In this document: positions 1 to 8,427 of the stretch, one piece after another | Numbering within the stretch: position 1 is the first letter of the stretch | Layout of the letters: the number at the start of each line of letters is the position of its first letter | Assembly (NCBI GenBank): GCA_947623205.1 | Contig: CANQGM010000011.1 | Coordinates: 1-64,000, forward strand | DNA from: an uncultured Clostridia bacterium | GTDB taxonomy: Bacteria > Bacillota > Clostridia > Oscillospirales > Acutalibacteraceae | Direction of reading: 5' to 3' | DNA length: 64,000 nt | Notes under the pieces: generated by a model | The model's input: the letters and a program-made list of their open reading frames with translations, nothing else | The model's database searches: none | What the model was told of the DNA's origin: nothing | Translations under genes and position numbers: made by a program

Positions 1-32
1 AAAGAGGGCATGGAGTAAATAAAAATATAGAG

Positions 33-74
33 AATCCCCGGTATTTGTCCATTTTGGGCATTGCCGGGGATTTT
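33..74 (+). terminator. Rho-independent terminator-like hairpin
   Basis: AATCCCCGG ... CCGGGGATTTT inverted repeat followed by T-run. Confidence 0.7.
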
Positions 75-129
75 CGCATTTATGGGATAAATAATTAGAA
101 GATAAATTGATAATTTATTTACTGAGGGG

Positions 130-342
130 ATGATTATGTATCCGTATCACAACACAATTAAAAAAAGAATTAAAAACGGCGAGCTGATAAGTTTTAATTA
201 TGTGGATAACTACAAGGATATAGGGGAGTGTTTACTTTTGCATTTCAGCACACCGCCATTTGAGCGACCAATAAGACCACACAAATATCACGAGTATTTC
301 GATATTCTTGAAAAATGGGCAAAACAGTCGGATAATAGTTAG
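130..342 (+). CDS. small hypothetical protein (70 aa)
   Basis: ORF with upstream GAGGGG SD-like sequence; no confident family. Confidence 0.55.
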   Translation: MIMYPYHNTIKKRIKNGELISFNYVDNYKDIGECLLLHFSTPPFERPIRPHKYHEYFDILEKWAKQSDNS

Positions 343-396
343 AAAGACAAAGCTTTAAAATTTAAGAATGTAATTGTGAAAAGACAATTTGAGATT

Positions 397-846
397 TTAA
401 TTAAATAGAATTTTAATACGTCTGACAGATTGATAACCGTTTTGACAATTATCTAATATTCTCTGCATATCAATAATCTTTATGTCGGACATTTTTTTAT
501 GATAAAGTGATTTACATTGATTATAAGCAGCTTCATACTGGCGTTTGGTATTTGCGTTTGTATCATCTGTAATAAATTCATCATACCAACGCTTATAAAT
601 TTCATTAAAAGCAAGTTTTGCTCATTTTATGTCATATGGATTTTTATTGTAGTCCGACAGAGCGTTTAAGGCATCCAGTCTGTTTGGATAATACCCGATA
701 ATTTTTCGCTGCTGATTACGAGTTTCTCTATCATATCCAATGGTGACACAAACAGCCCAAGGATTACGTCTTTTTCCGCTCAGTTTATAAACCGAGCCAT
801 AACCGTTTGGTAGTTTCATAAAAGGCCTCCATATCAAATTTGACAC
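397..846 (-). pseudogene. truncated tyrosine-type integrase (N-terminal arm-binding plus part of core-binding domain)
   Basis: 622-846 encodes KLPNGYGSVYKLSGKRRNPWAVCVT...; the same frame continues past an in-frame TGA (..NPYDIK*AKLAFNEIYKRWYDEFITDDTNANTKRQYEAAYNQCKSLYHKKMSDIKIIDMQRILDN..) to a TAA at 397; catalytic domain absent. Confidence 0.8.
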
Positions 847-911
847 AGAGGCATAATTATCCTAGAATTATTTTAAGACTTATCATGGTTTTTTGGTGAC
901 TCCTGTGTTAC

Positions 912-952
912 CGTCCGCTCTATCCTGTGCCAACAGGGTAGGGCGGTTTTTT
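912..952 (+). terminator. terminator-like hairpin (T-run on + strand)
   Basis: CCGCTCTATCCTGT-GCCA-ACAGGGTAGGGCGG then TTTTTTATTTTAT. Confidence 0.65.
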
Positions 953-955
953 ATT

Positions 956-1162
956 TTATATCACTATTAAAATTATGACAATAGCTATTATAAGAATAGT
1001 TAGTAATACAGGCATTAAACAACCCCCGCCAGTAATCATTTTACCTACTTTCCTTTGTCGCCCTGATTTGGTAAGCGGAATCCCAGTTGCTTTTGAAATC
1101 TTACGTTTGGCTTTTGTAACACCTAATGCGCGTTTCCAACTAAAACCACCTCTATTTGCCAT
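956..1162 (-). CDS. small basic protein with C-terminal TM helix (MANRGGFSWKRALGVTKAKRK...)
   Basis: ORF; start at 1162 has a GGAG SD on the minus strand; C-terminus is a hydrophobic TM segment. Confidence 0.7.
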   Translation of the reverse strand: MANRGGFSWKRALGVTKAKRKISKATGIPLTKSGRQRKVGKMITGGGCLMPVLLTILIIAIVIILIVI

Positions 1163-1191
1163 CGTACACATCTCCATTTAAGAAAATTATT

Positions 1192-2271
1192 TTATATAAA
1201 ACGCTTTACAACTTCAATGAGTTTATCTTTATAATGTTCAAGGTCATAAATATTGGGGAGTATAATTTTTTCTTGACTTTTATCCTCATTAGGAATATAA
1301 AGAATTTTTTTATTATCTGTAAGAACCAACCGACAGATCCATTTACGCCCATTGTCTTTATATAAAATATTTATGTATGATATAGTATCTCTATATGTAA
1401 TATCAGTCATTGGAACTATATCTTTTAAAAGGTTTTTTATTATAAAATACGCTTCTAATTCTTCATCAGTTGTTATGATTTCTGAAGATTTATTATGTTC
1501 TTCTTGAACGACTTCAGCAGTTTTATCAGGTATATTATCAGTAGCCTTCGATTTTTCATCATCTGTACCTAAAGCAGCTTTTATTTTTTCGTTCATCAAT
1601 TCACTTATGTAGTTGTTAAGTGATTTTTTCAAAATTGGTTTAAATTTGTCAACAACATTTTGTGTCAGTCTGCCGGAATAGGTTTTGTTTAAAAAGAATC
1701 TAAGAAAATCATCTGTTGGCTTTTGTAATTCTTGAGACAAAATATTTTTAAATTCATTTGAGTATTTTAATTCAGAGGCAGTACTAAAAATTTCTTCAAG
1801 ATTAAAGTTGGATTTATGAAATTTTTTTAGTTCAGCAATTTTAGTTTCTTTAGGATTTAAAATATCAATTTCTAAGAACGGTTTTTCATCCATTTTATTC
1901 GGTTCTTCTAAATCGGTGAAAAACTTATAAACTAACCCGTTAGTTAAAACGGCAAATTTTGCTTTTGTTGTACCAAAATATCTAAATAATTGTGAACTGT
2001 GTCTATCTAAATTTTCGCCACACCATTTTGCTTCAATTAGTATAATGGGTTGTCCATCTTGAATTATAGCATAGTCAACTTTTTCCCCCTTTTTGATACC
2101 TACATCAGCTGTGTATTCGGGAACAAATTCATCAGGATTAAAAACATCGTAACCTAACATTTTAAAGAAAGGAACGATTAACGACATTTTTGTTGCTTCC
2201 TCTGTTTGTAATGTTTCCTTGATATTTGCCGCCTTTTTTGAAAATTGCTTGATTTGATCGATGAAATCCAT
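1192..2271 (-). CDS. HSDR_N-like PD-(D/E)XK nuclease domain protein, standalone
   Basis: 359 aa; VDYAI-IQDGQPIILIEAKW (D..ExK) and SQLFRYFGTTKAKFAVLTNG are typical of the type I restriction R-subunit N-terminal domain; no helicase or methylase nearby. Confidence 0.8.
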   Translation of the reverse strand: MDFIDQIKQFSKKAANIKETLQTEEATKMSLIVPFFKMLGYDVFNPDEFVPEYTADVGIKKGEKVDYAIIQDGQPIILIEAKWCGENLDRHSSQLFRYFGTTKAKFAVLTNGLVYKFFTDLEEPNKMDEKPFLEIDILNPKETKIAELKKFHKSNFNLEEIFSTASELKYSNEFKNILSQELQKPTDDFLRFFLNKTYSGRLTQNVVDKFKPILKKSLNNYISELMNEKIKAALGTDDEKSKATDNIPDKTAEVVQEEHNKSSEIITTDEELEAYFIIKNLLKDIVPMTDITYRDTISYINILYKDNGRKWICRLVLTDNKKILYIPNEDKSQEKIILPNIYDLEHYKDKLIEVVKRFI

Positions 2272-2363
2272 TTTTTTCTCTCCTTTAAAATATTATTTGA
2301 CAAATTATGTTAAATAATATAATATTTTATCAGAGGAGTGCTAACTTCTCACGCTTATTTATT

Positions 2364-2402
2364 GCCGTCCGTTATTTGCAGTAACGGGCGGTTTTTTATT
2401 TT
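2364..2402 (+). terminator. terminator-like hairpin (T-run on + strand)
   Basis: GCCGTCCGTTA-TTTGCAG-TAACGGGCGG then TTTTTTATTTTAT. Confidence 0.6.
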
Positions 2403-2418
2403 ATAAAAAAGCTATATA

Positions 2419-2895
2419 TTAATAGCCGTTTTGTTCAGCTCCATATACGGCTTGTTCATGTGTAAATCCTTCGTATTCAAGCTGTTTAATTAATGAGTCC
2501 TTTGAGAAACTTGAATATTCTAAGTAGGAAGCGGCTGATTTAACTGCCTGTTCTTTCCAATCGGCACCGCAATTATCAGCAGCATATACGGCTTCTTCAT
2601 TGGAATATTTTTCGTATTCCAATTGCTCAATAAGTCCCTGATATGAAAAGGCTTTAGATTCAAGATAAGACTTTGCTGATTTCAAGGCATTTATTTTACC
2701 TATAGAAACGTCAGACTTCGTCTTTTCTGTTGGTTTCTCAGTTGTAGACTCTTCTGTCGTAGTTGCTTGCATTGCTTGTACGGTAGTATCGGATTCTGTC
2801 GTAAACTGCTCGGAATTTGTCGATGATGAACAGCCTGCGAAAATTACCGATGTCGCAATAACTCCCATTAATAGAATTGTAATTACTTTTTTCAT
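2419..2895 (-). CDS. Ltp-family (host cell surface-exposed) lipoprotein with two repeats
   Basis: lipobox VIFAGCSSS; two repeats ALKSAKSYLESKAFSYQGLIEQLEYEKYSNEEAVYAADNCG / AVKSAASYLEYSSFSKDSLIKQLEYEGFTHEQAVYGAEQNGY. Confidence 0.85.
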   Translation of the reverse strand: MKKVITILLMGVIATSVIFAGCSSSTNSEQFTTESDTTVQAMQATTTEESTTEKPTEKTKSDVSIGKINALKSAKSYLESKAFSYQGLIEQLEYEKYSNEEAVYAADNCGADWKEQAVKSAASYLEYSSFSKDSLIKQLEYEGFTHEQAVYGAEQNGY

Positions 2896-3049
2896 TTGTA
2901 TTCCTCCAAAATATAATTAATTTGCCGACATAAATTTACATATTTTGTCAGCTAATTATATAATAAGTTATTTAAGATGAAAGTGCAACTATATCACAAT
3001 TTTACGTGCAAACTTTGTGAAATTACGACAAAATTTATAAAAAGAATTT

Positions 3050-3300
3050 GTTTAAAATATGCTCTTAATTCCACTTTTTTGTTTTTTATGAATGTTTCAA
3101 ATTGATTATATACCTGTTTTTCCATTGGGTGTAAATACCACGCATTTCGCATTTCAAGTTCACGCATACGTTTTTTTCGTTATGTTGCCGCTTCAAGCGA
3201 TATGTTACATAGATTTGCAATATCGCGAGCAGTAAATGCTTTTAACTCGTGCAGTACGCAAGCAGGAGCTAATAAATCTCTTGCAAATACATTATATAAA
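3050..3300 (-). pseudogene. ImmA/IrrE-family metallopeptidase, C-terminal remnant with in-frame stop
   Basis: minus-strand translation LYNVFARDLLAPACVLHELKAFTARDIANLCNISLEAAT*RKKRMRELEMRNAWYLHPMEKQVYNQFETFIKNK; TAA at 3180-3182. Confidence 0.7.
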
Positions 3301-4082
3301 GATGAGAAAGCTGAGCTATATTAAATGAACATTATTCAGATAATAGTTTTAAGATTTATTATGGATAAGCAGGAGATATATAATTTAATGATTTCCGAAA
3401 TGAGCAAAATAATTAATCAATGGGATAACTCTGGTATTATAATTGAAACACAATATGAATTTGCGTCGCAACATATTATAAAGTATTATTTTGATTAGAT
3501 TTATAAAATTATTAAAGAAAATGGGGCATAGTGTTGGCGAAATAAATAGTGTTAATTGTGAAGACGATTATTGCATTTAAGAAGTTTTATGCGAGACAAT
3601 TGAAATTTTAGGAGAAGGATAAATGTATTGTTTTTTGATCCTTTAATGATAAATTATAATGAGGCAAAAAGAATTGTTGAAAGATATTTTGAGTTGCATT
3701 CATCTTTGATTGTTTAGATTATAATTTGTTTAAATAAGAATTTTCGGCTCCCATAATATTTTGTGTAAAAACTACTCCATCAAGCAATAAAAAAGTGGAT
3801 TGCAGAATCGGTGTGATTGACTTGCACTGTATTAATTATGATTCCCGTTTGCGCAATGTTATGTGTGAGCCAGTTCGCATGACCGTTTATAATAATACAA
3901 CGCGCTTATTCCCTCATCAATCTTTAGATAGGTGAGGGAGTTTTTATCATAAAATAATGTTAGCTACTTGTTTGCTATATGTTAGCTACGAAGCATAATT
4001 TAGCGTAATTCAGTGTAACTTTAATATAGCAAAAGCTCAGTAAATATCGGGATTTACTGAGCTTTCACATTAATTAATGTTT

Positions 4083-4169
4083 TGGTGCAGGTAACAGGAC
4101 TTGAACCTGCATGAAATTGCTTTCACATGGACCTGAACCATGCGCGTCTGCCAATTCCGCCATACCTGC
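4083..4169 (-). tRNA. tRNA-Leu (anticodon CAG)
   Basis: 7-bp acceptor stem GCAGGTA/TACCTGC, anticodon stem-loop CATGG-TTCAGGT-CCATG, GGTTCAAGTCC T-loop, encoded CCA, long variable arm. Confidence 0.95.
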
Positions 4170-4287
4170 ATATTTGATATTCATAAAGTTTTAAGACAAA
4201 GTTTTTTAGACGGAGACTTACTTGTTAAGTATATCAAACATATTGAAGAATGTCAATTAAAGATTAATAATTTTATTTTTATGTTTT

Positions 4288-4938
4288 TTAAATTAACGAT
4301 AATTCCAAATAAATATCATTTGCTGATTTTATAAACGCTTTGCAATTGTACTTTTCAGCATCCTCTTTTGTTCTGAATCCCCAGCCGTATAGAGCCGCAG
4401 CAAAGTCCATTCCGACTTTTTCAGCACCCTGCGCGTCAACTTCACTGTCTCCTATAATAATACTGTCTTCAACAGACACTCCGAGTTTTTCGCATGCCTG
4501 CATAATCAAATCGCCTTTTGTGAGATTAGTACCGACATCTGTTGCGCAAACAGCGTCAAACATATTTTTACCATTAAATGATTCCAGCATATTTGAAATA
4601 AACATTGTATGTTTTTGAGTTGCTATTGCAAGCTTGCAGCCGTTTTCTTTTAATTTGTTCAGTGAGTCGGCTATGCCGTCATATAATGTGAACATCTCTA
4701 TGCCTTTTTGCGAATATAACTTGCTGTAATTATTTGCGGCATATTTGACTTCATCATCTTTCATATCAAAAATTCTTTTAATGACTTCTTCAAGAGGAAA
4801 ACCGATCACACCGTAAAGCGCGTCGTGGTCAACGGGCGGATATCCTAACGATGTTGCTGTTGTGTTTAAGCAGTAAAGTATTCCCGGAGAAGTATCTGCA
4901 AGAGTTCCGTCAAATCCGAAAATTACTAATTTTTTCAT
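4288..4938 (-). CDS. HAD-superfamily hydrolase, phosphoglycolate phosphatase-like, motif I altered
   Basis: FGFDGTLADTSPG (canonical FDFDGTLxDT), ATQKH, KGDLI, IIGDSEVDAQGA. Confidence 0.85.
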   Translation of the reverse strand: MKKLVIFGFDGTLADTSPGILYCLNTTATSLGYPPVDHDALYGVIGFPLEEVIKRIFDMKDDEVKYAANNYSKLYSQKGIEMFTLYDGIADSLNKLKENGCKLAIATQKHTMFISNMLESFNGKNMFDAVCATDVGTNLTKGDLIMQACEKLGVSVEDSIIIGDSEVDAQGAEKVGMDFAAALYGWGFRTKEDAEKYNCKAFIKSANDIYLELSLI

Positions 4939-5166
4939 AATATCACCTGTAAATAAAAAAACACACGATAAAAACACATTTTTGCGTATTACATTCTCTG
5001 TGTATAGTGTTTAGATAAACATAATACTTTTTGTTAATTATAACATTCAAAATTAATAAACACAATAGTTATTTTTAATTGACATAATGTGCAGGGCGGT
5101 ATAAAATTAACTTATGCATTAGTTATTTACTGCCATATGCTGACTAAATTAATGAAAGGCTTAAAA

Positions 5167-6798
5167 ATGAGCACATCAAATATACAAAATGACAAAAACA
5201 AAAAGTTAAATCAAAAATACACCGTAAAAAATGCGCTTGTAAACTATTATTTATTTTTAATCTTTACTGTTTTTCCGCTGTTTGCAACTAACGCGTATTT
5301 TAATATACGTCACGATAAATATTACTTATTTATAATTCTTTCAGCTTTGATTATTTTAGCAGAAGCCGCTTTGGTACTATCGTTAAAAGCCGATAATAAA
5401 AATAAGTTATGTGATGAACCTGTTATGGGTGTGAAAAAAAATATATGGTACAAGTCGTTTTCATTTACCGACTGGGCCATGCTTGCCTTTCTTGCGGTCA
5501 GTTTTATATCGTCCGCTTTGTCAAAGCATCCGCTCGACGCGATTTTAGGCACCGCGGGCAGGAACAACGGTTTGCTGCTGATTGCATTGTATGTTGGCGT
5601 TTACTTTCTTATTACACGTTATTACTATTTTATGGAATATGTTTTTATTGCGCTTGCGGGAGCGTCGGCAATTGTTTATCTGCTGTCTATTCTAAATTGC
5701 TTTTACATTGATCCGCTCGGAATGTTTTCCCGGCTTACCGATGAAAAAACAATAACCGACTTTACTTCGACCATCGGCAATAAAAATTTGATGTCAAGCT
5801 ACATATGCATAACTCTTCCGGTGTTTATTGCAATGTCGGTCCACACAAAAAAATCAGCTTATCGGGCAATCTATCTTACCCTTACGGGTCTTGGCTTTGA
5901 GGCATTAATGACTGCCGACAGCGACTCGGGCATTCTCGGCATAGGAGTATTTTTAGTTATATATTTTGTCTGGTATTCAAGAAAGATTGCAAGATTAAAA
6001 AGATTTTTTCTTTCCCTTACGGTTATGTTGGGGTGCGCCAAACTCCTAAGGCTGTTTTCATTTTTAATGAATGATAAATCAAAAGGTATGGATGATTTTC
6101 AAAAGTTGTTTGTTTACTCAAGATTTGGATTTGTAGTTCTTGCAGTCGTTGCAATAATTACCGTTCTGCTTTACTTAATTGATAATAAAAAGCCTGATAT
6201 TGTACTTTCAAGGGCAGTGCCGATTACGCTTGGTGTATTTGCAGTCTTGTGTGCAATAGGAATTGTCGGCACAGTAGTTTATTTTAGCCGGATAGATACG
6301 ATTGCAGACCTTAAAGGATTTAAAGGTCTTTTGCGTTTTGACGATGAATGGGGAACGCACAGAGGCTTTATGTGGATAAGGTCAATGTGGATTTTCAATG
6401 ATTTTTCATTAGTCGAAAAACTGTTCGGCTGCGGTCCCGACAACTACTATTATGCTTTTCAGCCGTATTTTAGCGGACTTCAAAAATATGGCGACTCATC
6501 AACAAATGCGGCGCATAACGAGTACATAAATTATTTGATTACAATAGGAATTACCGGTCTTTTGTCTTTCCTTGCAGTTTTAGGCGGCACTATAACCCGT
6601 GCGGTCAAATCGGCACAAAAAAATCCCCTTGCCATTGTATGCGTATCGGCCGTTATATGTTATTCGGTGCAGGCGGTCGTAAATATTTCACAGCCTATAA
6701 CAACTCCGCTTTTTATTTTGTTTATTGCACTTTGCGAAGCAGTTTCAAGACAAACAAAATTAACAGGTAAAAATTCATTTGATGTTGGTGAGTGTTAA
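5167..6798 (+). CDS. O-antigen ligase/polymerase family membrane protein (Wzy_C-like)
   Basis: multi-TM protein; GCGPDNYYYAFQPYF...NAAHNEYINYLITIGITGLLSFLAVLGG. Confidence 0.75.
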   Translation: MSTSNIQNDKNKKLNQKYTVKNALVNYYLFLIFTVFPLFATNAYFNIRHDKYYLFIILSALIILAEAALVLSLKADNKNKLCDEPVMGVKKNIWYKSFSFTDWAMLAFLAVSFISSALSKHPLDAILGTAGRNNGLLLIALYVGVYFLITRYYYFMEYVFIALAGASAIVYLLSILNCFYIDPLGMFSRLTDEKTITDFTSTIGNKNLMSSYICITLPVFIAMSVHTKKSAYRAIYLTLTGLGFEALMTADSDSGILGIGVFLVIYFVWYSRKIARLKRFFLSLTVMLGCAKLLRLFSFLMNDKSKGMDDFQKLFVYSRFGFVVLAVVAIITVLLYLIDNKKPDIVLSRAVPITLGVFAVLCAIGIVGTVVYFSRIDTIADLKGFKGLLRFDDEWGTHRGFMWIRSMWIFNDFSLVEKLFGCGPDNYYYAFQPYFSGLQKYGDSSTNAAHNEYINYLITIGITGLLSFLAVLGGTITRAVKSAQKNPLAIVCVSAVICYSVQAVVNISQPITTPLFILFIALCEAVSRQTKLTGKNSFDVGEC

Positions 6799-6859
6799 AA
6801 AGAAATTTAAAAATCATTTGCGTAAACTTAATTTTTAATCACTATTGTTTGTAAGACTA

Positions 6860-6900
6860 AAAAATCCCAACCGAAAATTTATTTTTCGGTTGGGATTTTT
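6860..6900. terminator. bidirectional terminator hairpin
   Basis: AAAAATCCCAACCGAAAA-tttat-TTTTCGGTTGGGATTTTT between convergent genes. Confidence 0.9.
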
Positions 6901-6915
6901 ATTGGTGTTTTATCT

Positions 6916-8427
6916 TTATTTTATAATGCTGTTGCCGTCCATTTCTTCCGGTTTGGGAAGATTTAAAATATGAAGCATGGTCGGTGCAATATCTGCAAGT
7001 CTGCCGCCTTCTCTGAGTTCGCAGTCATAGCCTACAACGCAGAAAGGAACCGGATTTGTAGTATGAGCGGTAAAGGGTTCTCCGTCGGAGTCTATCATTT
7101 TGTCTGCGTTTCCGTGGTCAGCGGTAATAATTGCAACTCCGTCCATTTCTCTGATAGCGTCAATAACTCTGCCAACGCAGGAGTCAACAGCTTCAACGGC
7201 CTTTACGGTCGCTTCAAACACACCTGTATGACCTACCATATCACAGTTTGCAAAGTTGAGAATAATCACATCATATTTGCCGCTTTTAATTGCCGGAATG
7301 AGCTTATCTGTAACCTCATAAGCGCTCATTTCGGGTTGTAAGTCGTAGGTTGCAACAGCAGGAGATTTGACAAGGATTCTGTCTTCACCCGGATATTGCT
7401 TTTCAACACCGCCGTTAAAGAAGAATGTAACGTGAGCATACTTTTCTGTTTCTGCAATTCTCAGTTGAGTCAGATTTAAACTTGAAATATACTCGCCCAG
7501 TGTATTTTTAAGAACCTGCGGCTTGAAAGCAACGTCAACATTCGGCATAGTTGCGTCATACTGGGTCATACAAACATATTTAAGCGGGAATAATCCGTTT
7601 TTTCTTTCAAATCCCGTAAATTCGGGGTCAACAAGAGTTCTTGTGATTTCACGGGCTCTGTCGGGACGGAAATTAAAGAAAATAACACTGTCGTTTTCTT
7701 TAATTGTTTCGCCGCCTTTTATAAAGCAGGGAACAACAAACTCGTCTGTAACTCCGTCTTTATACGAGTTTTCAACAGCGCAAACAGGGCAGTCAGCCTG
7801 AACGCCCTCGCCGTAAACCATTGCCGCATATGCTTTTTCAACACGTTCCCAGCGATTGTCACGGTCCATAGCGTAATATCTGCCCATTACAGTTGCAATT
7901 TTACCAACACCTATTTCTTCGGTTTTTGCTATGCATTCTTTAATAAAATCTGCGGCGCTTGACGGAGGAACATCACGACCGTCAAGAAAAGCATGAATAA
8001 ATACTTTTTTAAGACCCTTTTTCTTTGCAAGTTCAAGTATGCCGTAAAGATGTGAGCTGTGGCTGTGAACGCCGCCGTCGGATAGAAGTCCCATAAGATG
8101 AAGAGATGTGCCTTTTTCAAGAGCATTATCCATAGCGGCAACAATAGCTTCATTGTCCTTAAGTTTATCTTCGTTGATAGTTTTGGTAATTCTTGTAAGC
8201 TCCTGGTAGACGATACGGCCTGCTCCGATGTTTGTGTGACCAACTTCTGAGTTGCCCATCTGACCGTCGGGAAGTCCAACGTCCATACCCGACGCGCCGA
8301 TTTGAGTTATGGGGTTAGATGAAAAGATTTTGTCAAGGTTTGGTCTTTTTGCCACTTTAATTGCATTGCCGTCTGCGGAATTAATACCGAAACCGTCAAG
8401 AATCATTAAAATTAAAGGTTTTTTCAT
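6916..8427 (-). CDS. gpmI: 2,3-bisphosphoglycerate-independent phosphoglycerate mutase
   Basis: [14 protein letters not shown]...[15 protein letters not shown]...[11 protein letters not shown]...ITADHGNAD. Confidence 0.97.

Follow-up and report, generated by a model that had tools for sequence, protein, structure and literature searches.

An intact orphan HsdR-type nuclease among the cargo of a decayed phage lysogeny module in an uncultured Clostridia bacterium, with putative antisense sRNA-like genes beside the cargo genes

The nuclease locus described here is almost certainly the decayed lysogeny module of a temperate phage integrated in the chromosome, i.e., the interval from repressor to integrase. 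Our preferred explanation, held with moderate confidence, is that the cargo of this module has stayed intact and that its orphan nuclease serves lysogens by attacking the DNA of superinfecting phages. We infer this anti-phage step from gene position and from the catalytic core, and it is this step that holds the uncertainty of the explanation. What had been proposed as a new defense pair turns out to involve a widespread phage nuclease whose HsdR core is intact and which lies beside the repressor in phages of several phyla. Many proteins annotated as “type I restriction enzyme N-terminal domain” become testable as prophage superinfection nucleases.

The window, i.e., the whole stretch of 64,000 nucleotides that was analyzed, is contig 11 from its first base and belongs to a 1.74-Mb, 99%-complete genome. 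Both ORFs inside 956–2271 lie on the minus strand, on which the original prediction was silent, and the neighbors that identify the locus had been missed. The surviving gene order is ImmA remnant, ltp, nuclease, small membrane protein and integrase remnant. Directly upstream of the nuclease, ltp (2419–2895, minus strand) encodes a 158-aa Ltp-type lipoprotein (PF07553) that matches the superinfection exclusion family phrog_4980 with 129 bits. Further upstream, the C-terminal 75 aa of an ImmA-like metallopeptidase remain, interrupted by an in-frame stop (3069–3293, minus strand) and 73% identical to the intact gene of L290, a genome of the same genus. Downstream of the small membrane-protein gene, the N-terminal 145 of 350 aa of a phage tyrosine integrase (PF00589) are left (400–819, minus strand), with an in-frame TGA and 48% identity to the intact L290 integrase. 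Since remnants of ImmA and integrase flank the cargo, the locus has the gene order of a phage lysogeny module, with decay at either end. Lysogeny-module cargo (morons) lies between the repressor and the integrase of a temperate phage, and this is the position found here: in the window by what remains of ImmA and integrase (the repressor has been lost, with no remnant of it in the first 9 kb), and in the relatives by intact genes. Beyond the ImmA remnant lies a tRNA-Leu (CAG) gene (4083–4169, minus strand), which could mark an edge of the former prophage.

The nuclease gene (1192–2271, minus strand) starts with ATG behind the Shine-Dalgarno sequence AAAGGAG and encodes 359 aa, a length well beyond chance: when the 2.9 kb region was shuffled 300 times under a Markov model, the longest ORF reached 151 aa. 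As originally predicted, the protein contains VDYAI..ILIEAKW and no helicase: HSDR_N (PF04313, 1.4e-15) is the sole domain matched, and the SF2 motor that is fused in type I HsdR is absent. The claim that no HsdM is nearby likewise stood, with no HsdM- or helicase-like neighbor and no recognizable HsdS among the ORFs at 1–8000 and only two weak generic matches, of 26 bits or less, in a genome-wide search for N6_Mtase. A role as type I restriction subunit was consequently rejected, as there is neither a motor nor a clear methylase. Over its full length, i.e., residues 1–358 against profile positions 2–354 of 357, the protein matches the phrog_4225 “endonuclease” profile with 451 bits. The AlphaFold2 model (pLDDT 89) is closest in Foldseek to the nuclease domain of DrdV and to an HsdR fragment, the best PDB matches, with a probability of 1.00 and E-values of only 0.006–0.01. 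The C-terminal alpha-beta5-alpha domain (residues 264–359; 1195–1482, minus strand) is modeled with a pLDDT of 96.5, gave no significant match to any solved fold and is confined to this nuclease family among the ORFs compared.

The catalytic core consists of D66, E80-x-K82 and Q94-x-x-R97-Y98 (1978–2076, minus strand), recognized by conservation and by the spacing found in EcoR124I HsdR. Among 57 relatives, D66, E80, K82, Q94 and Y98 are invariant and R97 is present in at least 90%; the PD-(D/E)XK and QxxxY residues by which we judged phrog_4225 membership are complete in this protein. Purifying selection on the family is indicated by dN/dS values of 0.07 and 0.12 for the two pairs with estimable dS, which are divergent (one dS being 2.5) and say nothing on selection in the decayed copy. 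Members of phrog_4225 are annotated as “type I restriction enzyme N-terminal domain protein”, and the nuclease is a new member of this known phage family, functionally untested as far as we found. A literature search on the family in superinfection yielded neither a functional study nor phage-challenge data. One paper on a “type IV restriction endonuclease” in Dp-1 resistance was set aside; it is about McrB, which belongs to a family other than phrog_4225.

Eighteen phage records carry the nuclease; of the ten inspected, nine have it behind the repressor and/or ImmA and ahead of the integrase. The hosts of these nine phages are Terrisporobacter, Enterococcus, Acetoanaerobium, Streptococcus (two phages), Fusobacterium, Lacticaseibacillus (P7.1, a record with unnamed genes whose order was taken from position), Corynebacterium and Klebsiella. 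This placement is also reflected in the IMG/VR loci, in comparison with 616 other ORFs of 150 codons or more from the same viral loci: 70 of 88 nuclease loci have a same-strand repressor-like HTH gene upstream at a distance within 1 kb (other ORFs, 66 of 616), 67 of 88 have an integrase downstream (150 of 616), and 58 of 88 have both (26 of 616). Such a constant place between repressor/ImmA and integrase would also suit a nuclease that serves the phage's own lysogeny, e.g., by processing or protecting the DNA of the phage when it integrates, excises or switches to the lytic cycle. We regard this as quite unlikely, as modules such as L352 of this genome and L354 have repressor, ImmA and integrase and do without the nuclease, only six of 150 genomes of the genus match it (one of them only weakly), and the same slot is elsewhere occupied by Abi_2, PemK-like and Ltp genes. 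Moreover, a copy of the same genus (L292) is solitary, without phage neighbors, and nevertheless intact.

This solitary copy also bears on the idea that the genes in this genome are neutral relics, without current function and simply undecayed so far. In the window, stops interrupt both flanking phage genes but none of the three cargo ORFs (ltp, nuclease and small membrane protein), a pattern that, together with the intact L292 copy, makes mere delay in decay an unlikely account. In its favor, however, ImmA and integrase are already broken here, and another nuclease copy of the genus (L293) is a pseudogene. The homologues of L290 and L291, at 75–78% identity, reside in intact modules of repressor, ImmA, nuclease, cargo and integrase.

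An anti-superinfection role of the nuclease, the reading we favor, would agree with its repressor-side position in phage loci, the invariant catalytic residues and the purifying selection. It would likewise agree with the neighboring gene matching a superinfection-exclusion PHROG and with the Abi_2 and PemK-like genes in the slot of L352. In lysogens, the nuclease would be transcribed together with the repressor and would degrade the DNA of superinfecting phages; its C-terminal domain might supply the recognition of DNA or target in place of the HsdM, HsdS and helicase functions of type I systems. Against this role we count the Porphyromonas phages, in which the nuclease lies amid structural genes, the bacterial genome loci, of which only 25 of 80 have a repressor upstream, so that many copies reside outside recognizable lysogeny modules, and the PADLOC defense models, none of which matches well.

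Downstream of the nuclease, at a gap of 29 nt, follows the gene of a 68-aa protein (956–1162, minus strand) with the basic N-terminal motif FSWKRALG..SGRQRKVG, a Gly-Cys and one TM helix. It starts with ATG and has GGAG upstream, and the description of a small basic TM protein with its own Shine-Dalgarno sequence was borne out. By itself an ORF of this size is within chance (half of 300 shuffles reach that length); it is supported by homologues that are up to 64% identical over its length. The family is defined by the N-terminal motif FSWKRALG..AK..IS...GIPLTKSGRQRKVG and occurs as soluble forms of about 40–50 residues, as forms with Gly-Cys and one TM helix and as longer fusions (L205–L284). 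Pfam gave no match and PHROGs one weak match. Of 79 viral loci of the family, 39 have a repressor-like gene upstream and 26 have an integrase downstream, which indicates that the small protein, too, is often a gene of the lysogeny slot.

The idea that nuclease and small protein form a coupled two-gene defense module, with a nuclease sensor and a membrane effector, could draw on their arrangement 29 nt apart on one strand, each with its own Shine-Dalgarno sequence, and on the first gene after the nuclease encoding a hydrophobic stretch in 25 of 51 distinct cases. Co-conservation of the pair is however missing: the small protein is found in none of 168 other nuclease loci and the nuclease in none of 80 other small-protein loci, and when 399 genomes of the phylum were examined for both genes, the nuclease was present in 16, the small protein in four and the two together only in this one. 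In relatives, the gene downstream of the nuclease is swapped for unrelated genes. Coupling of the two genes, for which the original prediction itself had named absent co-conservation as refutation, was rejected on these counts, and we consider such a module highly improbable. What stands of that interpretation is an orphan nuclease probably used between phages, as suggested by the lysogeny modules and the superinfection-exclusion neighbor; the coupled sensor and membrane effector do not. The small membrane protein counts as cargo in its own right within the same slot and not as a partner of the nuclease. A second kind of basic N-terminal motif (SLKARTTGRAKRAVKKALIPGYGKKG) occurs behind the nuclease in L026 (7096–8595) and L111, where it is found in a small protein and at the start of a larger protein.

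Apart from the protein-coding cargo, comparison of the window with L290–L292 revealed a repeated intergenic element, a less expected result and a side finding of this study. Antisense to the lysogeny genes, it starts with a promoter of the TTGACA-17-TAATAT type, which is followed by a hairpin, a linker and an intrinsic terminator whose loop is conserved. The copy between ltp and the nuclease (2297–2400, plus strand) is a putative antisense sRNA gene with the promoter TTGACA-17-TAATAT, two hairpins and an intrinsic terminator, and its folded RNA has a z of −6.0. A second, diverged sRNA-like unit (840–960, plus strand; TTGACA-17-TAGAAT, hairpin and terminator) matches the model weakly (17.7 bits) and has an exact repeat of 20 nt (GGGCGGTTTTTTATTTTATA) in common with the first. 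Its terminator ends on the stop codon of the small membrane-protein gene. This geometry might suggest a small membrane toxin with a convergent antisense RNA, as in type I toxin-antitoxin systems; yet it is also seen behind ltp and other non-toxin genes, and the sRNA model gave no significant match in the vicinity of further members of the small-protein family.

A covariance model of the element found matches in 29 of 150 genomes of the genus and seven in this genome, of which six are diverged copies elsewhere. A promoter with at least 10 of 12 matches lies just upstream in 35 of 45 tabulated hits, compared to 3.9% of mononucleotide shuffles, and this evidence is largely independent, since the promoter is not part of the covariance model (an overlap of the first model positions with the end of the −10 box is possible). 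In the terminator stem, compensatory changes affect 8 of 11 pairs among 29 aligned sequences. On mostly clostridial nuclease loci, a refined model gave 12 hits at E values under 0.04. Ten of these run antisense to the nuclease gene, and most are directly beside it; the hits do not amount to twelve independent cases, since they include several near-duplicate loci (e.g., L010 and L129) and three that were used for model building. The first model, applied to 99 further loci of the nuclease family, produced one weak hit, and 98 of the 99 lack the element at E<0.1. It is also found in modules without the nuclease (L352, L354–L357 and L359). An RNA partner of the nuclease as a general rule was rejected on account of these nuclease-less modules and the 98 loci without the element. 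A REP-like genome-wide repeat was likewise dismissed, as blastn was confident only for the window copy and the 20-nt repeat, although the covariance model does pick up the six diverged copies elsewhere in the genome. A search of Rfam yielded nothing relevant to the element, only a tRNA being matched.

Altogether, loci with the element are the window, L290, L291, L292, L351–L360, L006, L007, L010, L018, L068, L071 and L136. Among them, L352 (G000 contig 5, 34500–40000) is a second module of this genome with three sRNA copies, in the order repressor, ImmA, sRNA, PemK-like, sRNA, sRNA, Abi_2 and an integrase-like ORF. In L351, L358 and L360, lipoprotein genes that lie outside recognizable prophage modules each have a copy of the element converging on them from behind, and in L358 and L360 this arrangement lies beside the same two downstream genes. 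Judged from sequence, these sRNA-like genes of about 70 nt, antisense to lysogeny genes and equipped with strong sigma-70 promoters and covarying terminators, apparently constitute an undescribed family. If transcribed, they would add to lysogeny modules a regulatory layer that we did not find described. It is conceivable, albeit tentative, that in clostridial temperate phages such genes (own sigma-70 promoter, 5′ hairpin and a terminator with a UUCGCAG-type loop) punctuate lysogeny operons, bracket exchangeable anti-phage cargo and control or insulate it, e.g., through an effect in trans on related elements that incoming phages carry. Alternatively, the element may be an antisense terminator without a regulatory role.

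Several known systems help to place these findings. The prototype among superinfection-exclusion proteins of this kind is the Ltp of phage TP-J34, whose exclusion activity was shown experimentally (PMC3952083), and the gene neighboring the nuclease encodes a lipoprotein of the same family in the same slot beside the integrase; TP-J34 Ltp, however, acts at the cell surface, where it keeps phage DNA from entering (PMC3952083), and is unrelated in sequence to the nuclease. With the phrog_4225 proteins of phages, e.g., Streptococcus phage IPP25 or Enterococcus phage EG-TP1, the nuclease shares homology over its full length, an equal length and the place after repressor/ImmA and before the integrase, whereas this copy belongs to a prophage that has decayed and is flanked by ltp upstream and by the gene of a small membrane protein downstream. 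In comparison to the nuclease domain of EcoR124I HsdR, it lacks the helicase motor, has no clear HsdM in its genome and features extra helical and C-terminal domains. The spacing of the core is identical to that of D151/E165/K167/Q179/R182/Y183 in EcoR124I HsdR (D–E 14, E-x-K, K–Q 12, Q–Y 4 and an Arg before the Tyr), in which the exchanges D151A, E165H and K167A abolish cleavage (PMC2602864; PMC4454674).
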